Assembly: GCF_001971585.1 (NCBI RefSeq)
Contig: NZ_CP019323.1
Span: forward strand, 2,284,053 to 2,348,052
Direction of reading: 5' to 3'
Length of the DNA stretch: 64,000 nt
From: Companilactobacillus allii
Lineage (GTDB): Bacteria; Bacillota; Bacilli; Lactobacillales; Lactobacillaceae
This document shows positions 1,985 through 55,174 of the stretch, one piece after another. A program made the translations under genes and the position numbers. Each line of letters starts with the position of its first letter. The first letter of the stretch is position 1. Under the pieces are notes generated by a model. It made no database searches. It was not told the DNA's origin and worked only from the letters and a program-made list of their open reading frames with translations.

Positions 1985-2016
1985 TCGTTAGTCTTAATTG
2001 ACTAGCGATTTTTTTG
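1985..2016 (+). terminator. intrinsic terminator before the left-tip cassette
   Basis: The stem TCGTTAGTC / GACTAGCGA (one G-T pair) has a 6-nt loop and is followed by seven T. A near-identical hairpin lies at 52577-52608 before the second copy of the cassette, so it belongs to the mobile unit. It would insulate the cassette from upstream reading. Confidence 0.7.
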
Positions 2017-2048: not shown

Positions 2049-2077
2049 TTGACCATACACTAATATGAGTGTATTAT
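2049..2077 (+). promoter_or_regulatory. promoter with palindromic operator for the left-tip cassette
   Basis: The -35 box TTGACC (2049-2054) and -10 box TATTAT (2072-2077) are 17 bp apart. Between them lies the near-perfect palindrome ACACTAATATGAGTGT (2057-2072), a good candidate operator that would block the promoter when bound. The homologous region at 52642-52670 keeps the palindrome almost intact, but its -10 reads CATTCC and its -35 TTGAAT, so that copy is probably weak or dead. Confidence 0.65.
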
Positions 2078-2109
2078 ATTATATTATATATAGAAGGGAG
2101 GCAATACAG

Positions 2110-2220
2110 ATGACACGAATGGAACTACGAAAACAAAAAAGAACCTTAACAATCGAATTGTCGGTAAACATCTTCGGATTGATAAAGTTCTCCATAAAAT
2201 CGACAAAGGAAAGCCCCTAA
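2110..2220 (+). CDS. 36-residue basic peptide, first gene of left-tip cassette
   Basis: This short ORF has a strong ribosome site (GAAGGGAGG, 2092-2100) 9 nt before the ATG. The peptide starts with a basic helix (MTRMELRKQKRT) and continues with a mixed hydrophobic stretch. A homologous 36-codon ORF exists at 52698-52808 with most changes being substitutions and the length kept, which supports it being a real coding sequence. It heads a three-gene unit with its own promoter and terminator. No family is recognised. Confidence 0.55.
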   Translation: MTRMELRKQKRTLTIELSVNIFGLIKFSIKSTKESP

Positions 2221-2270
2221 GGGGGTTTCCTTTATGCACTTAAATTATAACATTTAAGGAGATTTAATTC

Positions 2271-2396
2271 ATGAAAAAAACATATCAAAGTAAGAATACA
2301 ACTATGACATTTGAAATTAACAAGCCTACCAAATGGTATCAATGGCTAGTAATTGCATTAGCAATAGTCGGAATAATTTATTTAATAGTGAGGTAA
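2271..2396 (+). CDS. 41-residue single-span membrane peptide, second gene of cassette
   Basis: The ORF is preceded by TAAGGAG and encodes a hydrophilic N-terminal half (about 22 residues) followed by one transmembrane helix (WLVIALAIVGIIYLIV) and a terminal Arg. The copy at 52859-52984 differs at only a few residues, and the transmembrane half is identical, which points to selection on the protein. It ends 4 bp before the next gene. The function is unknown. A single-span peptide of this kind in a prophage could act in the membrane, for example in exclusion or as a toxin, but nothing here proves it. Confidence 0.6.
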   Translation: MKKTYQSKNTTMTFEINKPTKWYQWLVIALAIVGIIYLIVR

Positions 2397-2400
2397 CAGT

Positions 2401-2586
2401 ATGACTGAAAAACTAACTGAGGCACGTATAAAGGCCAATAAAAAATGGGATGAAGATAATAAGGAACGAAAACAATATCTAAACACTCGATCAGTTGCTA
2501 GAAATTTCATTAAGAAACGTGCCACTTTGGATGACATCAATGAATTAAAAGAATTGATTAAAATCCGTGAAGAAGAATTAAAATAA
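2401..2586 (+). CDS. 61-residue helical protein, third gene of cassette; possible DNA-binding protein
   Basis: The product is highly charged and predicted helical (KLTEARIKANKKWDEDNKER, then RSVARNFIKKRATLDDI and a Lys/Glu-rich tail). The layout, with an N-terminal strand-like segment and two helices, resembles small ribbon-helix-helix-like proteins found on lactobacillus plasmids and phages, but that is a memory-based impression. It is the natural candidate for binding the palindrome in the cassette promoter. The copy at 52989-53174 has an in-frame stop. Confidence 0.65.
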   Translation: MTEKLTEARIKANKKWDEDNKERKQYLNTRSVARNFIKKRATLDDINELKELIKIREEELK

Positions 2587-2603
2587 AATTATATCCCCCT
2601 CAA

Positions 2604-2648
2604 AAAGTAACCCTCCACCTAAATTAATAGGCAAAGGGTTACTTTTTT
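2604..2648 (+). terminator. intrinsic terminator of the left-tip cassette
   Basis: The stem AAAGTAACCCT / AGGGTTACTTT is followed by T residues. It closes the three-gene unit 18 bp after the last stop codon. Confidence 0.75.
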
Positions 2649-3242: not shown

Positions 3243-4286
3243 TTATCTGTTTCCGCCACCGATTGTGTAATAAGTATCTATGTATTGATTAGTAGCAACT
3301 TGTAAGTATAACTTTCCATTAATCCAATGTGGACGGTCGTTAGTCTTCCACTTAGATTGATCAGTGAAAGTTTTGCGACTGTCCGAAATCTGCTTACCTG
3401 TTGAATCCACAGCATTGACACCAGATATGGCGTTGATAGTTACTAAGTTAGCTTCAGAAGTGTATTTCTTTGGAATGTACTCGTCTGTAGCAATTCTGTA
3501 CATTGGCAAACCATTGACCGTTGTCAGATAACTAGTCTTCCAAGCTGTATCATTACGTAATTTAGTATTGCTACCAGGTATAATTTTACCTTTAGAATTC
3601 CAACCAGCTATACCAGTTGTTGGACCGTCTTTAATTGTCACAGCATCACGTATAACTGTGGCTGTAGGTGTTGAATAGAAGCCATGTAGTAAGTCTTCAG
3701 CTAACCTCTGTTTAGTTATACCCCAGCTAGCAAGATAGCCGTAAGGGTCTTGATGGTCGCCACCATAGTTGTTAGTTACCCACAAGTGTGACTTAATACC
3801 GTTACCATAGCCGTCCAAAGTTAATGGGATACCGTAGTAGTTAGCCCAATATCTGGCTAGGTTAACGTAAGTGTGGTAATCAGCATTGAATGTATTACGG
3901 TCAGCTGTACGTGCTAATTCAATTTGAACTGGCGAATAAGGATTAGCTGACAAGGCTCCCCAAGCTACATAACCTGGTTGTCCTACTTGATACACTTGAC
4001 CGCCACCACCTACAAAATAAGTAGCATAGGCGTTCGAATAATTATTATGCATGAATTGTACTTCGTGCAACACAGCATTAGTGTCATTCACATCATTCTG
4101 ATTGCCCGATTCATGTAAGATAATATAGTTTCTATATGCTTGTCGTGAATCACCCTGATAAGCTCCCAGAGCATAATTCTGATTAATATTGAAGTCAGAA
4201 TTAACATCAGCATCAACAGTTACTGGTGCAAGAAAAAAGCCTGCTAAAATTACTAGCAGACCTAAGATATTTATTTTGTTTTTCAT
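3243..4286 (-). CDS. secreted endolysin: N-acetylmuramoyl-L-alanine amidase with SLAP-type wall-binding repeats
   Basis: The 347-residue protein starts with an export signal (MKNKINILGLLVILAGFFLA). The Amidase_2 domain follows at about residues 45-200, with zinc-ligand candidates His58, His167 and the DHQD cluster at 177-180. Two C-terminal repeats (about 207-347) resemble the lactobacillus SLAP cell-wall binding domain (paired patterns such as MYRIATDEYI and LYLQVATNQYI). It cleaves the amide bond between MurNAc and the stem peptide. The ATG at 4286 was chosen because GAGGGA lies 6 nt upstream. A Sec signal means it may be exported and the holin would then act mainly as trigger. It lies 2 bp from the holin gene. 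Confidence 0.9.
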   Translation of the reverse strand: MKNKINILGLLVILAGFFLAPVTVDADVNSDFNINQNYALGAYQGDSRQAYRNYIILHESGNQNDVNDTNAVLHEVQFMHNNYSNAYATYFVGGGGQVYQVGQPGYVAWGALSANPYSPVQIELARTADRNTFNADYHTYVNLARYWANYYGIPLTLDGYGNGIKSHLWVTNNYGGDHQDPYGYLASWGITKQRLAEDLLHGFYSTPTATVIRDAVTIKDGPTTGIAGWNSKGKIIPGSNTKLRNDTAWKTSYLTTVNGLPMYRIATDEYIPKKYTSEANLVTINAISGVNAVDSTGKQISDSRKTFTDQSKWKTNDRPHWINGKLYLQVATNQYIDTYYTIGGGNR

Positions 4287-4287
4287 A

Positions 4288-4506
4288 TTATCCCTCTTTT
4301 GGTTTTGAAGTGTCGTAAATGATACCAACTAACCCACCAACAGCTAATAGTGAGTTAACAATATCCATAACTTGGCCAGATAATTCAGCTGGTAATTGGA
4401 TATTAAAAAGTGCCAGTACTTGCTGTACCAGCACTAACAGAATTGATATCAATGACACCCACCATACTTTGGAGTGCCAATCTATTGATAATTTATTTGT
4501 CTTCAT
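4288..4506 (-). CDS. phage holin, phiLC3 type
   Basis: This 72-residue protein begins with a short polar segment (MKTNKLSIDWHSKVWW). It has two membrane helices separated by a loop (FNIQLPAELSG) and a charged tail (DTSKPKEG), matching the phiLC3/Phage_holin_1 family in length and layout. Holins open or depolarise the membrane at a set time to allow lysis. The gene sits directly upstream of the endolysin and overlaps the preceding gene by 14 bp, the usual lysis-cassette arrangement. Confidence 0.85.
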   Translation of the reverse strand: MKTNKLSIDWHSKVWWVSLISILLVLVQQVLALFNIQLPAELSGQVMDIVNSLLAVGGLVGIIYDTSKPKEG

Positions 4507-24059: not shown

Positions 24060-25187
24060 CTAATTCATTCTTTTAGCAATTTCATAAATAACTGGGACTG
24101 TCACAGAATTACCAGCCTGTTTATAAAGTTGTGAATTACTATTTACTTTCTCTGCTCGATCAAATGCCCAGTCTGGGAATCCTTGAAGTCGCCAACATTC
24201 GCGAGGTGTAAGTTTGCGAATACTCATACCATCATAAATACCGTGTCTATCCTGTGTATTTAACGTAAACATAGGATCTTCATTTTCTTTAAATCTTCTA
24301 CCGTTTTGACGCTTAACAATCCTATCAGGCGTTAATACTGGAACAACCACACCTTGATTTAATCCAGTTTGCAATGTGTTAGCTCTTTGACTTCCAACGC
24401 GACCGCGTCTCGTTTTGCTATTTGGCTGTGTAAAGTTAACTGAATCACCCACCACTGCTTCGGCGTAGCCCTGTTTAGTTGCTTCACGGATAGCAATTTT
24501 AGGTTCACGGTTACCGCCACCCATAGTATTTAGTGTTCCGGCAATGCCATCTGGTGAAACAACGTCTTGGCTTCCATAAGTGCCAGTGTTGCGCCCGTCA
24601 AACACGCGAATTATTTTTTGTTTTGGGCTATCAATTGGTTCACCTTTTCTTTCGATAGGAAATACTTTTCTGGTACATCGTCCTCTAAAATGTCCGATAA
24701 TGAATACTCTTTCCCTGTTTTGAGGCACGACTTCTTTTGAGTTAAGAATGTCCCACTCGATGTCATACCCGAGTGAGTCCAACTCAATTTGGAGGCTTGC
24801 AAAGTCCCATCCTGAATTAATTGAAAGTAAGTTTTTAACATTTTCAATGAGTAAATAGGAAGGTTTCTTTTTGTCTTCGAGTTCATGAAGTTTTCTTGTA
24901 ACGGCAAAGAATAACGAGGAGCGATTTCCTTCAAAACCTTTTTGTTTTCCTGCGACAGAAATATCTTGACAGGGGAAGCCGAAACACCAGATGTCTGCTT
25001 CGGGTAATTCTTTTGTGTTACTGCAGTTAATGTCATGTTCTGTATATTCTCCTTCTGTATCAAAAATTGCTTCATAACTTCTTCTAGCAAATTTGTCTAT
25101 TTCAACGAATCCAACACAAGTGTGTCCTGCTTGTTCAAGTCCTAGTCTGAAACCACCGATTCCGGCGAATAAGTCTAAAAACTTCAT
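24060..25187 (-). CDS. orphan DNA cytosine-5 methyltransferase
   Basis: The 375-residue protein has the full set of C5 methyltransferase motifs: FLDLFAGIGGFRLG (SAM binding), the catalytic Cys73 in GFPCQDIS, IENVKNLL, QNRERVFIIGH, a target-recognition region (about 195-310) and a C-terminal QAGNSVTVPV. It methylates cytosine C5 in some short site that cannot be told here. No partner nuclease gene is nearby, so it probably protects phage DNA from host restriction. Ribosome site GGAGG before the ATG; overlaps the upstream gene by 4 bp. Confidence 0.93.
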   Translation of the reverse strand: MKFLDLFAGIGGFRLGLEQAGHTCVGFVEIDKFARRSYEAIFDTEGEYTEHDINCSNTKELPEADIWCFGFPCQDISVAGKQKGFEGNRSSLFFAVTRKLHELEDKKKPSYLLIENVKNLLSINSGWDFASLQIELDSLGYDIEWDILNSKEVVPQNRERVFIIGHFRGRCTRKVFPIERKGEPIDSPKQKIIRVFDGRNTGTYGSQDVVSPDGIAGTLNTMGGGNREPKIAIREATKQGYAEAVVGDSVNFTQPNSKTRRGRVGSQRANTLQTGLNQGVVVPVLTPDRIVKRQNGRRFKENEDPMFTLNTQDRHGIYDGMSIRKLTPRECWRLQGFPDWAFDRAEKVNSNSQLYKQAGNSVTVPVIYEIAKRMN

Positions 25188-35453: not shown

Positions 35454-35516
35454 TCATGATGTCCAAACACTGACTGACTTTAAAAGCTGAATATATGTTA
35501 TAGAGGGAAAAACATT

Positions 35517-36002
35517 ATGAAGAAAATGGCATTGGGGATACTATTACTTTCAATGATGACTTTAGCTACAGCCTGTGGAAACAATTCTAGTACTAAAAAC
35601 TCTAGTTCCACTAAAACGGAATCAGTAGATAAAAATAAAATTCCAACCGCTAACAACAAGAAAATTGCCAAGCAAGTTGAAAAAGAATTAAACAAAGATG
35701 GTAAAGTTGGAAAAGTATCTGTTGAAACTGAAGTACATGATGATCAGTCCGCTACAAAGAAAGATGGTAGTACTAAGCCACATCAAGTTGTCCATGCCTT
35801 GATCACTGATAAAGCATTGATTAAAAAAATTGATGCCAATGGTAATGACGTTGATATGCTTAAAGAAGGTATCAAAGAAATTGCAGATGACTATTCTCCA
35901 GAGCTAAAAGGGCACGATACAATTACTATTGATTATGAAATAGATGATTCGCAATACAATACGATTGCTCTTAATAACAAGAATGGAAGAATTATCAAAT
36001 AA
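35517..36002 (+). CDS. prophage lipoprotein, lysogenic conversion candidate
   Basis: The 161-residue protein has a lipoprotein signal peptide ending in the lipobox LATAC. A Ser/Thr-rich spacer and a mixed alpha/beta domain with no known motif follow. Exposed lipoproteins next to phage repressor genes, such as Ltp of TP-J34, often block DNA entry of other phages. The upstream leader (35471-35519) is nearly the same as that of the Ltp-like gene at 54458, which supports a shared origin or control. Confidence 0.7.
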   Translation: MKKMALGILLLSMMTLATACGNNSSTKNSSSTKTESVDKNKIPTANNKKIAKQVEKELNKDGKVGKVSVETEVHDDQSATKKDGSTKPHQVVHALITDKALIKKIDANGNDVDMLKEGIKEIADDYSPELKGHDTITIDYEIDDSQYNTIALNNKNGRIIK

Positions 36003-36730: not shown

Positions 36731-37915
36731 ATGAGTTCTATTACAAAATACAAATTAAAAAACGGAAAATCGTTCTATCGCGTTCAATACACCGTTGGTT
36801 ATGATCCATTAACCGGAAAGCCACAAAGGAAACAAAAACGTGGCTTTAAAACTCAACGTGAAGCCAAATTGTGGTCTGCGAGAGCTACCGTAGATATTGA
36901 CAACCATGGATTTACCGAAAATAAGGATATAACCTATAAAGAGGTTTACGATGATTTTATAGAATCGTACAAAAAGACAGTAAAAGAAAGTACTTTGAAT
37001 CATGTTTTAGGGATTTTCAGAATACATATCTTACCTATCTTCGGCAAAAAGAAGATAAAAAAAATAACCATCCCTATGTGTCAAAAGGTGGTTAACGATT
37101 GGTCTGAAAATTTTGCTGATTATAAAAAGATAAAAAACTATGCCAATTTAGTTTTTAAAATGGCTAGACGCTTGAGTATTATCTATGAAAACCCCATGGA
37201 TCTAATCATTATGCCAAAAGATAAGCCGGAAATGCACAAATCTGGTGATGAAAAGTTTTGGGATAAAGAAGAGCTGCAGACATTTTTAGAACAAACTGTT
37301 AAATACTATGGCAATCGAAATGAAAAAGCTATCGCCCTATTTAGATTGATAGCTTTTACAGGTGCGCGAAAGGCCGAAATATTAGCTTTACAGGTTGCTG
37401 ACTTCGATTATGATGAGAAGACACTACTAATAAATAAAACCGTTACAAGGGACATTGATAACAAACAAGTGATAGGCACACCTAAAACAATCAATGGTTA
37501 TCGTACATTGTATTTAGATCAATACACAGCAGACCTACTACATAATTGGATAATACGAATGCGAAAAGAAATGCTTATCCTTGGATATAATACTTCTTCG
37601 CGAAGTCAATGGATATTTCCTAACGAAAGTAACAATACCCTTTCATTAATGAAGCCAAATAAGTGGATAGACACGGTAATTAGTTCTTACAATGCTAACA
37701 AAGATAATAAGACTAAGTTAAAGCGTATTACACCACACGGATTACGTCACACATTTGTAACCATCGCCATCGAGTCAAAGAAGTTAACTTTGAAACAAAT
37801 TCAAGAACAAGTTGGTGATAGTGATATAAGTGTGATAATGAACATTTACGCACACGTTACTAAAAAAGCGTCAAAAGAAACTATTGATAGTTTTACAAGT
37901 TACGTTGGCTTTTAA
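36731..37915 (+). CDS. int: tyrosine integrase
   Basis: The 394-residue protein has an N-terminal arm-binding domain (AP2-like, about 1-55) and a SAM-like core-binding domain (about 65-165). The catalytic domain carries Arg213 (TGARKAEIL), His336 and Arg339 (HGLRH) and the nucleophile Tyr373 (NIYAHVT). It integrates and excises the phage at the tRNA-Glu core just downstream. Length and layout match integrases of Gram-positive temperate phages. AGGAG lies before the ATG. Confidence 0.95.
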   Translation: MSSITKYKLKNGKSFYRVQYTVGYDPLTGKPQRKQKRGFKTQREAKLWSARATVDIDNHGFTENKDITYKEVYDDFIESYKKTVKESTLNHVLGIFRIHILPIFGKKKIKKITIPMCQKVVNDWSENFADYKKIKNYANLVFKMARRLSIIYENPMDLIIMPKDKPEMHKSGDEKFWDKEELQTFLEQTVKYYGNRNEKAIALFRLIAFTGARKAEILALQVADFDYDEKTLLINKTVTRDIDNKQVIGTPKTINGYRTLYLDQYTADLLHNWIIRMRKEMLILGYNTSSRSQWIFPNESNNTLSLMKPNKWIDTVISSYNANKDNKTKLKRITPHGLRHTFVTIAIESKKLTLKQIQEQVGDSDISVIMNIYAHVTKKASKETIDSFTSYVGF

Positions 37916-37919
37916 TTTT

Positions 37920-37953
37920 CGTGGCTCATTCGTGGCTCATTTTTGATGAGCCA
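37920..37953. repeat. paired CGTGGCTCA repeats, putative integrase arm sites (right)
   Basis: CGTGGCTCA occurs at 37920 and 37931 as direct repeats. An inverted TGAGCCA copy follows at 37946-37952, forming a TGGCTCAT...ATGAGCCA hairpin. The same 9-mer pair lies inside the left end at 1935-1955. Confidence 0.6.
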
Positions 37954-38039: not shown

Positions 38040-38053
38040 ATCACCCGTATGGG
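38040..38053. other. prophage attachment core, right copy (att)
   Basis: ATCACCCGTATGGG matches 1851-1864 exactly. Here it is the 3' end of the tRNA-Glu gene, which stays complete after integration. The prophage thus spans about 36.2 kb. Confidence 0.8.
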
Positions 38054-38113
38054 AATCGAACCCATAACTCCACCTTGAGAGGGTGGCGTCTTAAACCATT
38101 TGACCAACGGGCA
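38041..38113 (-). tRNA. tRNA-Glu (anticodon CTC)
   Basis: The reverse strand folds as a cloverleaf: acceptor TGCCCGT / ACGGGTG, D arm GTC...GAC, anticodon stem CCACC / GGTGG with loop CTCTCAA, and T arm ATGGG-TTCGATT-CCCAT. Anticodon CTC reads GAG. The first acceptor pair is T1-G72, unusual for tRNA-Glu. A promoter lies upstream (TTGACA at 38160-38155, TAAAAT at 38136-38131). Its 3' end is the phage integration site. Confidence 0.85.
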
Positions 38114-38181
38114 ATCAAACAACAAATAACATTTTACCTGTTAATATGCTGTTCTGTCAACACTATATTAAGAATATTTAC

Positions 38182-52353: not shown

Positions 52354-52425
52354 TGGGCAATCGCCAAACGGTAAGGCAGCGGACTCTGAATCCGCAATTT
52401 GTAGGTTCGAACCCTACTTGCCCAA
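52354..52425 (+). tRNA. tRNA-Gln (anticodon CTG)
   Basis: The sequence folds as a full cloverleaf: acceptor TGGGCAA / TTGCCCA, D arm GCC...GGC, anticodon stem GCGGA / TCCGC with loop CTCTGAA, and T arm GTAGG-TTCGAAC-CCTAC. The anticodon CTG reads CAG. Its 3' end (CTTGCCCAAT) is repeated at 53357-53366, which marks it as an integration site. Confidence 0.93.
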
Positions 52426-52426
52426 T
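52417..52426. other. att-like core at the 3' end of tRNA-Gln (first copy)
   Basis: CTTGCCCAAT is repeated exactly at 53357. Both copies are followed by a similar stretch containing GATAGGTTT and TTGATAAAT. The core is short, so chance cannot be ruled out, but tRNA 3' ends are usual phage sites and phage-related genes follow. Confidence 0.5.
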
Positions 52427-52525
52427 CATTGAATTTCATTAAGTTTTGATAGGTTTTAAACCCCTTGATAAATCAGTATTTATCAAAAAAATCTTTCGAT
52501 AAGTTTCGTTGAGTTTTGATTTAAC

Positions 52526-52545
52526 CGGACCACCACTCGGACCAC
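52526..52545. repeat. paired CGGACCAC repeats, putative arm sites of a lost integrase
   Basis: Two direct copies (52526 and 52538) are 12 bp apart. They lie at the same place relative to the cassette terminator as the CGTGGCTCA pair of the prophage, but with a different sequence, as expected for another integrase. Confidence 0.45.
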
Positions 52546-52576
52546 TTTAAAAAAAATGCTGTGAAGGCAATGTTAA

Positions 52577-52608
52577 TCGTTAGTCTTAATTGACTGGCGA
52601 TTTTTTTT
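52577..52608 (+). terminator. terminator before the second cassette copy
   Basis: TCGTTAGTC / GACTGGCGA forms a stem with G-T pairs followed by eight T; it is nearly identical to the hairpin at 1985-2016. Confidence 0.65.
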
Positions 52609-52697
52609 GTACAAAAAATATTTTATTATTCTTAAAATAACTTGAATATACACTCATATTAGTGCATTCCATTATATATATAGAGGAAGTGATATAG

Positions 52698-52808
52698 GTG
52701 ACACGAATAGAATTATGGCAACAAAAAAGAACTTTAACAATCGAACTGTCGGTAAACATTTTCGGATTGATAAAGTTCTCCATCAAGGTAACAAAGGAAA
52801 TCCCTTAG
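52698..52808 (+). CDS. 36-residue peptide, second copy of cassette gene 1
   Basis: It has the same length as the 2110-2220 gene with about seven residue changes, and starts at GTG instead of ATG. The ribosome site GAGGAAG is weaker. With a damaged promoter upstream, it is probably poorly expressed. Confidence 0.45.
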   Translation: MTRIELWQQKRTLTIELSVNIFGLIKFSIKVTKEIP

Positions 52809-52858
52809 GGGCTTACCCTTTGTGCACTTAAATTATAACATTTAAGGAGATTTACATC

Positions 52859-52984
52859 ATGAAAAAAATATATCAGGGTAAAAACACAACTATGATATTC
52901 GAAATCAATAAGCCTACAAAACGGTATCAATGGCTAGTGATTGCATTAGCAATAGTCGGAATAATTTACTTAATAGTGAGGTAA
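52859..52984 (+). CDS. 41-residue membrane peptide, second copy of cassette gene 2
   Basis: It is identical in length to the 2271-2396 gene and differs at only about four positions (for example IYQGKNTTMIFE). The membrane helix WLVIALAIVGIIYLIV is unchanged. It keeps the TAAGGAG ribosome site. Confidence 0.5.
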   Translation: MKKIYQGKNTTMIFEINKPTKRYQWLVIALAIVGIIYLIVR

Positions 52985-52988
52985 CAAC

Positions 52989-53174
52989 ATGACAGAAAAG
53001 CTGACTGAGGCACGTATAAAGGCTAATAAAAAATGGGACAAAGAAAACAAAGAACGTAAACAATATTTAAACACTCGATCAGTTGCAAGAAATTTCATTA
53101 AGAACCGTGCAACAAAGGAAGATCTGTAAGAGCTCAAAACCTTAATAGATAAACGTGAAGAATCATTAAACTAA
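52989..53174 (+). pseudogene. broken second copy of cassette gene 3
   Basis: The frame aligns over all 61 codons with the gene at 2401-2586. However, codon 47 is TAA (53127-53129), directly after RATKEDL. The rest (ELKTLIDKREESLN) is still recognisable, so the nonsense change is recent. Confidence 0.75.
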
Positions 53175-53181
53175 GTAGATT

Positions 53182-53216
53182 AAAATCCCCTGTCTAAATT
53201 AGATAGAGGATTTTTA
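53182..53216 (+). terminator. terminator of the second cassette copy
   Basis: AAATCCCCTGTCTAA pairs imperfectly with TTAGATAGAGGATTT and is followed by T-rich sequence. Confidence 0.6.
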
Positions 53217-53553
53217 TTTATATAAAAGACATTCCACGTTCGCCAATTTTAATTACAATTGCTATTACATACGTCATGACGTGTATAGTCAAGTACTTCT
53301 TAAATATTATTTGTAGCTAGTAACTAAACCCATATTTAGTAATTCAAGGATACCTTCTTGCCCAATAGATAGAGTAATTCGAACATCGATAGGTTTCAAA
53401 ACTATTGATAAATTAACGTTTTTTTGTACAGAAAACATTTTATTATTCTCTTATAAAGAAGATATTAGTTGCTTCCATTTATATAATAGATTTACAATAA
53501 TAGAACGTAGGCTTTAAATACTAGAGTAATCATGAAATTAGGGGAAAATAATT
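53217..53553. other. non-coding stretch with a second phage-end-like sequence
   Basis: No gene is seen in these 337 bp. The part from 53357 repeats the tRNA-Gln end (CTTGCCCAAT), then GATAGGTTTCAAAAC...TTGATAAAT, then TTTTTTTGTACA with ATTTTATTATT. This is the same order as downstream of the tRNA at 52417-52635. It looks like the left end of a second inserted element. Confidence 0.5.
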
Positions 53554-54276: not shown

Positions 54277-54457
54277 TAATAAATTCATATCAATCACCAA
54301 TTCTAAATATAAAAATCCAAATAAATTGTTCCAAAATTTTTTTGAACATCAAACGGTTATCCTGCCATATTTGTTTTTCATTTGTGGCACAAAAATATCA
54401 CGGTCCAGTCACTGATCGACTTTAAAAGCTGAATATATGTTATATGGGGGAAATATT

Positions 54458-55174
54458 ATGGCAACAAGAAAACATGGTAAAGCAAAAAAACCAATTTACA
54501 AACGTGTATGGTTTTGGATCATAATAGTACTTGTTATAGCGATATTTATTCCTGGGGGCGGTAGTGATTATGAAAAAACTGCAAAAACAGACAATACGAA
54601 AACAACTGCAGTAAAAAAATCTGACTCTGACAATAAATCCACATCAAGTAAACCTGTCAGCAAACCTGTGGCAAAAAAATCAGATAATGAATCGACGTCA
54701 TCCCAAGAAAGTAATGTACCTGCAGACTACGCATCAGCCCTAAATAGTGCCAAAACATACTCGAGTTCTATGAATATGTCAAAACAAGGTATTTATAATC
54801 AATTAACTTCAGATGCAGGTGAGCAATTCTCAGCTGAGGCAGGTCAATATGCAATTGATAATCTAAGCGCTGATTACAATGAAAATGCTTTGAAAACGGC
54901 CAAAACGTATTCCAGTGACATGAATATGTCAAAACAAGGTATCTATGAGCAATTGACTTCAACAAATGGAGAACAATTCACGGCTGAGGAAGCTCAATAT
55001 GCCGTTGATAATCTGAAAGCCGACTATAACGAAAATGCCTTAAAGAGTGCTAAGAGCTACCAAGATGATATGGACATGTCACCTGATGCTATCAAGGATC
55101 AACTAAGTTCTAGCTCAGGAGAACAATTCACACCAGAAGAAGCAGATTATGCGATTCAACATTTGAATGACTAA
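54458..55174 (+). CDS. Ltp-type surface protein, putative superinfection exclusion
   Basis: The 238-residue protein has a basic start and one membrane helix (VWFWIIIVLVIAIFI). A Lys/Ser-rich link and three 50-residue Ltp repeats follow (about 91-138, 141-188, 191-238; pattern AKTYSSxMNMSKQGIYxQLTS...GEQFxxEEAxYAxDNL). Phage TP-J34 Ltp, a lipoprotein with two such repeats, blocks DNA injection of other phages. Here no lipobox Cys is present, so the anchor is the helix itself. ATG 54458 lies behind GGGGGAA. Confidence 0.85.
   Translation: MATRKHGKAKKPIYKRVWFWIIIVLVIAIFIPGGGSDYEKTAKTDNTKTTAVKKSDSDNKSTSSKPVSKPVAKKSDNESTSSQESNVPADYASALNSAKTYSSSMNMSKQGIYNQLTSDAGEQFSAEAGQYAIDNLSADYNENALKTAKTYSSDMNMSKQGIYEQLTSTNGEQFTAEEAQYAVDNLKADYNENALKSAKSYQDDMDMSPDAIKDQLSSSSGEQFTPEEADYAIQHLND

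Follow-up and report, generated by a model that had tools for sequence, protein, structure and literature searches.

The window, i.e., the whole stretch of 64,000 nucleotides of the Companilactobacillus allii genome analysed here, contains a prophage (prophage 1) that reaches from attL to an attR at a tRNA-Glu end, with its integrase gene at 36731-37915 and its endolysin gene at 3243-4328. A cassette of three small genes (copy 1) is located between attL and the endolysin gene and is oriented toward the latter; after circularisation of the phage its place would be on the far side of attP, in the same direction as the integrase gene and convergent with the lysis genes. Copy 1 and its att side comprise the following features:

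1851-1864, unstranded: attL core ATCACCCGTATGGG of prophage 1, found by blastn of both prophage ends; the attR copy (38040-38053) is at the 3' end of tRNA-Glu (38040-38114)
1935-1955, unstranded: two arm-type repeats CGTGGCTCA adjoining attL, with a matching pair at 37920-37939 (blastn of the ends)
1985-2008, plus strand: leading terminator-like stem-loop with T run at the boundary of att side and cassette (terminator scan), also present in copy 2 (52575-52602)
2049-2077, plus strand: promoter TTGACC-17-TATTAT, 10 of 12 consensus bases
2055-2074, unstranded: operator-like dyad ATACACT-AATATG-AGTGTAT in the promoter spacer, with paired changes in 16 selected promoters
2110-2220, plus strand: gene 1 (pep1, type A), 36-aa peptide, dN/dS 0.17, with like peptides in the same slot elsewhere
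2205-2233, plus strand: attenuator-like hairpin between pep1 and pep2, overlapping the end of gene 1 (folding, z -3.7)
2239-2258, plus strand: CTTAAATTATAACATTTAAG inverted repeat, pairing up to the Shine-Dalgarno sequence of gene 2 (AAGGAG, 2256-2261) in the MFE fold
2271-2396, plus strand: gene 2 (pep2), microprotein of 41 aa with a single transmembrane segment at its C-terminus, dN/dS 0.086; transmembrane ORFs are enriched at this slot
2401-2586, plus strand: gene 3, 61-aa protein of phrog_2277 (E 1.7e-22), related to the C-terminal part of 8ye6 chain A32
2602-2647, plus strand: terminator-like stem AAAAAGTAACCC...GGGTTACTTTTT 3' of gene 3, seen by eye; its loop exceeds the length allowed in the terminator scan

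The first-pass annotation had described three products of 36, 41 and 61 residues behind an operator placed between -35 and -10, and both hold for copy 1, in which all three reading frames are open and ACACTAATATGAGTGT lies at 2057-2072 inside the promoter spacer. For gene 1 the start at 2110 is used here; the mechanical list of open reading frames begins it at an upstream ATG (2065). As to the terminators ascribed to the unit, the leading one was called by the scan (1 found versus 0.4 in shuffles), whereas no others were called, the structure at 2205-2233 coming from folding only and the stem at 2602-2647 from inspection by eye.

A second copy of the cassette had been claimed behind tRNA-Gln, and it is indeed present there in a decayed form:

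52577-53174, plus strand: cassette copy 2, 83% over 604 nt, just past tRNA-Gln (52354-52425)
52650-52665, unstranded: copy-2 palindrome ACACTCATATTAGTGC with one mismatch; the -10 position beside it reads CATTCC
52698-52808, plus strand: copy-2 gene 1, GTG start, 36 aa
52859-52984, plus strand: copy-2 gene 2, 41 aa, open
52989-53129, plus strand: copy-2 gene 3, with one in-frame TAA inside, past residue 46

The set of three products is not the same in copy 2, whose gene 3 is cut after codon 46 and whose gene 1 starts with GTG. With the -10 sequence lost, no promoter was called by the scan in copy 2, and the intercistronic hairpin is weaker than in copy 1 (z -1.6 versus -3.7 in folding). The transmembrane half of gene 2 is unchanged, as had been noted before, the last 19 residues being identical in both copies. 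Copy 2 adjoins tRNA-Gln and a GGACCAC pair, and the next similarity of the two copy regions outside the 604-nt block is one of 59 nt (35461-35519 with 54403-54460). The proposal that the unit is shared by two unrelated phage ends agrees with the distinct att sites, although copy 2 survives as a remnant. Repeats of the tRNA-Gln end motif CTTGCCCAAT and of the stretch TTTTTTTGTACA...ATTTTATTATTCT are found at about 53356 and about 53419 (within 52419-53450 of the window), and copy 2 may therefore have two att-like ends from successive integrations. A superinfection-exclusion-type lipoprotein with internal repeats is encoded beside copy 2 (54458-55171, phrog_4980, E 4e-86).

Between the two copies, dN/dS (Nei-Gojobori) is 0.17 for gene 1, 0.086 for gene 2 and 0.15 for gene 3, values that are rough because the genes are short; the other two frames of gene 1 give 0.41 and 3.9. 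The ratios are thus not near 1, and together with the order of small peptide, transmembrane peptide and gene 3, which recurs in other genera, they support the selected function that had been suggested earlier. At the DNA level, a search of 100 related genomes gave relatives of the complete cassette in three. Only G006:C10 is intact and keeps all three ORFs together; in G009:C5, gene 1 is interrupted by a stop and gene 3 begins with ATA, and in G023:C4 both gene 1 and gene 2 contain stops. A DNA search with the cassette in phage and plasmid records gave no match. The cassette is therefore real and under selection, and it has known relatives.

Gene 3 belongs to phrog_2277, which has no assigned function in PHROGs, and it has no match in Pfam or NCBIfam. 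A profile of the gene-3 family matches one PDB sequence, chain B of 8ye6 ("A32"), at residues 89-141 (E 4.4e-21), i.e., in its C-terminal 53 residues. From the chain name and from PMC8934645 we infer that A32 is AcrIIA32, which was described as a fusion with Aca13 (Song et al., 2022, PMC8934645). Aca13 was named in 2022. In this article, a form of AcrIIA32 without the fusion had a similar activity, and the self-regulation role of the Aca is given as still to be demonstrated (PMC8934645). Residues 89-141 of A32 would accordingly represent the Aca13 part and gene 3, as compared with chain A32, would be Aca13-like. The authors of AcaFinder left Aca13 out on the grounds that it has no helix-turn-helix (HTH) and no validated function (PMC9765179). 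The AlphaFold model of gene 3 predicts three helices (mean pLDDT 89, pTM 0.58), in which no classical HTH could be read; Foldseek gave no match for the model in the PDB and nothing useful from BFVD. A designation of gene 3 as ribbon-helix-helix protein was abandoned given the three-helix model, and a distant look-alike in locus L229 (E 8e-5), ribbon-helix-helix-like by eye, was left out.

Genes homologous to gene 3 are widespread. By tblastn they are found in 77 phage records, namely 57 of Streptococcus, 15 of Listeria and five of Lactobacillus, none of which covers 80% of the query. With the profile (E up to 0.001), 109 of the 301 sampled genomes of the bacterial family and 28 of its 40 sampled genera have a match, solo copies included, with at least 14 of the 109 belonging to the window's own genus and some matches being partial. 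Within this genus, 35 of 36 genomes have a gene-3 match and 34 of 36 carry a diverged relative of 46-53% identity (MVLTDAQKRANEKWH... in those inspected), which in the loci inspected is a solo chromosomal gene with its own promoter and no cargo (e.g., L135:5512-5691, L136:5658-5840). All three copies of gene 3 in the window's own genome are of the cassette type, and the solo relative is absent there. The solo relative is possibly a domesticated copy. A tRNA-Arg(tct) lies within about 1.5 kb of it in six of eight loci inspected, and in G029 it has an inverted repeat at -112. With gene-2-only and solo loci included, 11 of 20 examined stretches have a tRNA gene. In phiadh an att is annotated beside gene 3, and in Streptococcus phage 94 and phage JCL1032 gene 3 lies outside the att-to-lysin slot. 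The contig L179 (IMGVR_UViG_2758568505_000002) has six gene-3 matches, of which two fall in ORFs that are short or broken; with several cassettes and more than one copy of a lysin-like ORF in about 13 kb, it looks like stacked prophage ends.

The peptides encoded by genes 1 and 2 have no match in Pfam, PHROGs or NCBIfam, and no Acr model matched them. Pep1 of the window has a basic N-terminus followed by an alternating hydrophobic stretch. Reading the first peptides of other loci suggests two broad types, type A (basic plus alternating hydrophobic, as in the window) and type B (a hydrophobic helix); in several loci the filter let no first peptide through. Second peptides that resemble gene 2 seem to occur beside type A, and shorter transmembrane peptides beside type B. 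The position of the transmembrane peptide was evaluated at 117 profile matches chosen mainly by match strength (108 once identical upstream stretches were removed), by counting ORFs of 22-62 residues with a hydrophobic segment that end from -45 to +20 bp of gene 3. Such a microprotein lies directly 5' of gene 3 in 51 of 108 loci, compared with 23 of 227 control ORF starts from the same loci (odds ratio 7.9, p 1e-13), and in 39 of 84 groups when the loci, but not the controls, are grouped by similarity (p 2e-11). The hairpin past gene 1 recurs in relatives (z -3.6 in L179b, -5.3 in L179a, -3.6 in L039 and -2.4 in L348) and is weak in L117 (z -1.3) and L118 (z -0.1); the stem at the Shine-Dalgarno sequence of gene 2 is part of the MFE fold of copy 1, copy 2 and L117 and is absent from that of L118. 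An open gene 2 without a gene-3 match nearby is found in G006:C30, G002 and G014:C11. At the tRNA-Gln site in L122/L123 (G006:C30, G002) the orphan gene 2 is followed by an ORF that is HicB-like by eye. Moreover, near two gene-1-like remnants in L120 (G022) there is an ORF, MSVYQALSLMISFATLVVLILKFNQKNNRP, which presumably resembles holin-like type I toxins.

At the window locus the inverted repeat is placed inside the core promoter. The exact pattern ACACTAATATGAGTGT has two sites in the 2.53-Mb genome, the one in the cassette and one at 637740, with no second exact site within the 64-kb window. Neither the promoter-like matches in the cassette region (2 versus 3.6 in shuffles) nor the operator matches at one mismatch in the window (3 versus 2.06 in shuffles) exceed chance; the weight of the promoter and operator evidence lies in placement and in recurrence in other loci, and not in match counts. 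A dyad promoter was defined by at least 10 of 12 consensus bases and at least six of seven dyad pairs around the spacer, within 600 bp upstream of gene 3. By this definition 18 of 109 gene-3 loci have one, with one L179 promoter counted twice as two gene-3 copies follow it, compared with 22 of 654 control windows (p 1.3e-6), which were drawn from the same loci and may contain real operators of neighbouring cassettes. Once similar loci are grouped, the count is 14 of 84 (p 1e-5). The distance to gene 3 is 291-577 bp for 14 of these 18 promoters and no more than 80 bp, outside the expected place, for the other four; 58 of the 109 loci have no qualifying promoter. In a looser count (at least five pairs), 20 of 51 loci with a transmembrane ORF have a dyad promoter versus 10 of 57 without (p 0.01).

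Furthermore, the arms of the dyad co-vary in a selected set of 16 promoters, chosen for one common register. These show 25 both-sided changes compared with 12.7 in shuffles, a number that none of 500 shuffles reached, the shuffles ignoring relatedness and G-U cells being counted though the molecule is DNA. The covariation score of 0.36 was likewise reached by none of 500 shuffles, and it is 0.03-0.18 when the partner is slid by 1-3 columns. Five dyad pairs have a both-sided change versus 4.1 expected, and 75 of 500 shuffles reach five. For four rows the search pattern had fixed six of the 10 dyad pairs, and 24 of the 25 both-sided changes are in the four free inner pairs.

Pattern-only searches of IMG/VR differed with the length of the pattern. 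The short operator ATACACTN6AGTGTAT hit at least 120 stretches; among the matches listed, two had a gene-3-like match and one (L179) had gene 3 at the right distance. As a stand-alone finder the short operator was rejected as too weak, its hits being mostly chance. The longer pattern TTGACNATACACN8GTGTATTATA gave nine sites in eight contigs, and in five of these (L400, L401, L402, L404, L405) gene 3 follows 341-506 bp downstream. Only two of the five are new cases, because L401 repeats the G006 cassette, L404 repeats the L348 locus from which the pattern was taken, and L400 and L405 are near-copies of each other. No gene 3 was seen downstream in L399 and L403; the 117-aa ORF of L399 scores 43 bits against AcrIIA3_fam, short of the cut-off (70), and has phrog_12732 as its best PHROG, and L403 has a 133-aa ORF without any family match. 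In L398 only 70 bases lie downstream of the promoter pattern, and past a second dyad site in L402 no gene 3 was found in the 715 bp available. A Streptococcus/Listeria-type operator with N positions gave no contig. The search with a Streptococcus operator (eight contigs, all with gene 3 at 312 bp) was discounted because it is circular, the pattern having been taken from such phages.

In a few loci the micropeptide cargo is exchanged for Acr-like ORFs. In the Listeria phage LP-101, which keeps pep1 and pep2 before gene 3, ORFs for AcrIIA3 (181 bits, NCBIfam cut-off 70) and AcrIIA2 (195 bits, cut-off 40) lie 330 bp past gene 3 on the same strand. In L402 a dyad promoter is followed by a phrog_12732 ORF and then by gene 3; this order, with a dyad in front, is also that of a third gene-3 locus in the window's own genome (G000:C1, near 1654234), whose cargo ORF has no BLASTP similarity to the AcrIIA3 of LP-101, the link running via phrog_12732 only. 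By one definition an Aca gene adjoins acr genes, shares their orientation and occurs with more than two different types of Acr (PMC8934645). At the window locus the neighbours of gene 3 are micropeptide genes; elsewhere in the family, gene 3 comes right behind phrog_12732 ORFs (L402 and the third locus) and 330 bp ahead of AcrIIA3 and AcrIIA2 (LP-101). The host genome contains a Cas9 gene and a CRISPR array with 12 exact repeats; therefore a Cas9 inhibitor would have a target. A self-targeting spacer was sought as proof of an Acr, and no exact match to the window was found for any of the 11 spacers. It is the last spacer of the array that comes closest, with 23 of 30 positions at 24831-24860 in the prophage (best of 10 shuffles, 21); in the own genome, with up to three mismatches, this spacer was found only in the array itself. 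Perhaps this spacer is directed against a relative of prophage 1.

Our preferred reading, to which we give about evenly balanced confidence, is that the cassette is an acr-aca-type operon that is autorepressed by the Aca13-like gene 3 and has two micropeptides as cargo. When phage DNA enters a repressor-free cell, the strong promoter would be read, leading to a burst of two micropeptides, of which one is basic and possibly beta-like and the other would span the membrane once. The Aca13-like, predicted three-helix product of gene 3 would then accumulate, bind the spacer dyad and repress the promoter; therefore, the cassette is proposed to be nearly silent in the lysogen. Binding of the 61-residue product to the dyad is plausible, and autorepression is proposed on the model of Aca1-10. 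The hairpin past gene 1 and the inverted repeat at the ribosome-binding site of gene 2 may keep gene 2 below gene 1, a step that is less secure because the hairpin is weak in L117 and L118. The peptides would most likely occupy the slot of an anti-host or anti-defence effector that acts at the membrane, and a membrane-linked host defence is favoured as target because in a few loci Acr-like ORFs take the same slot.

The main rival is an addiction module, in which one or both micropeptides would be a membrane toxin and gene 3 both antitoxin and autorepressor, so that the prophage is maintained. Toxin-antitoxin modules of the Fst/TxpA type (type I/II) encode membrane peptides, and the cassette resembles them in its tiny single-transmembrane peptides with a possibly restrained translation, to which the inverted repeat at the ribosome-binding site of gene 2 and the hairpin would contribute, whereas the cassette peptides tested match no toxin family in Pfam, NCBIfam or PHROG. 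The autoregulation-like dyad, the tandem and remnant copies of the cassette, and the finding that some streptococcal acr neighbours are toxic in E. coli (Song et al., PMC8934645) would also suit such a module. However, gene 2 is open without a nearby gene 3 in three places (G006:C30, G002, G014:C11), two unlike peptide types occur with the same gene-3 family, and the cargo is swapped for Acr-like ORFs in a few loci. Copy 2 has kept genes 1 and 2 and lost gene 3, which argues in the same direction, yet protection could come in trans from copy 1, and copy 2 seems to lack a working promoter. On balance we regard addiction as unlikely.

Conversion genes are often located between attL and lysin, which is where the cassette sits. 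It could thus be a superinfection-exclusion or lysogenic-conversion cassette that is on in the lysogen, with another regulator (the phage repressor or a host factor) on the dyad and gene 3 as partner of the membrane peptide. The one transmembrane protein per cassette and the exclusion-type lipoprotein beside copy 2 are in line with this, but several sites would be expected for a phage repressor, and the exact operator is single in the window, with one more at 637740. Moreover, in some of the loci promoter, dyad and gene 3 stay together while genus and cargo type change, and such a role appears quite improbable to us. Finally, the cassette might be a neutral leftover of prophage decay next to att, with ORFs that have no function. 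Copy 2 is decayed and two of the three DNA-level relatives are broken, but the purifying selection (dN/dS 0.09-0.17) makes a neutral remnant highly improbable, as do the intact relative in G006:C10 and in the IMG/VR contig L401 and the gene order that recurs in phages of several genera.

Understood as an acr-aca-type operon, the cassette can be compared with known systems. Among the closest are the acr-aca operons with Aca1-10 (Shehreen et al., 2022, PMC9410906), in which the cargo also comes first and a small regulator-like gene last, and whose promoters have an inverted repeat inside the core promoter as well. The cargo in the window is, unlike theirs, not a known Acr. Furthermore, Aca1-10 have an HTH, and for each of these ten families repression was confirmed with one representative (PMC9410906), whereas gene 3 is a predicted three-helix protein with no recognised HTH. 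With AcrIIA32/Aca13 (PMC8934645; 8ye6 A32) the cassette shares the aligned C-terminal 53 residues and the origin from phage accessory loci, but gene 3 is free-standing behind micropeptides, while in AcrIIA32 the Aca13 part is fused to a Cas9 inhibitor. The AcrIIA3/AcrIIA2 locus of LP-101 has the same order of pep1, pep2 and gene 3 between integrase and lysin; there the peptides are of the other type, and the window copy has no adjoining acr gene. The first-pass annotation knew of no described system of this form, which has to be revised, as gene 3 matches the part of A32 that is read as Aca13 and the arrangement of cargo followed by an Aca gene, with an inverted repeat in the promoter, is known (PMC9410906). 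It still applies to the micropeptide cargo, for which no description together with Aca13 or an Aca-type gene was found in a limited literature search.

The cassette offers Aca13 a concrete candidate operator, and its role can therefore be tested by a single reporter assay. In a wider sense, Aca13-like proteins might be a new class of autorepressors without HTH, and their operons a widespread platform for early expression in Lactobacillales and in Listeria phages, whose main cargo would be a large set of undescribed paired membrane micropeptides directed against membrane-linked defences; the solo copy in most Companilactobacillus genomes, other than the window's own, would then be a domesticated repressor of incoming operons. 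We put this forward tentatively and consider it possible but doubtful. The same promoter plan and the same regulator-like gene may close operons whose cargo consists of micropeptides of about 28-50 residues. Such micropeptides are often missed by annotation, and there may be new anti-defence, exclusion or toxic peptides among them.
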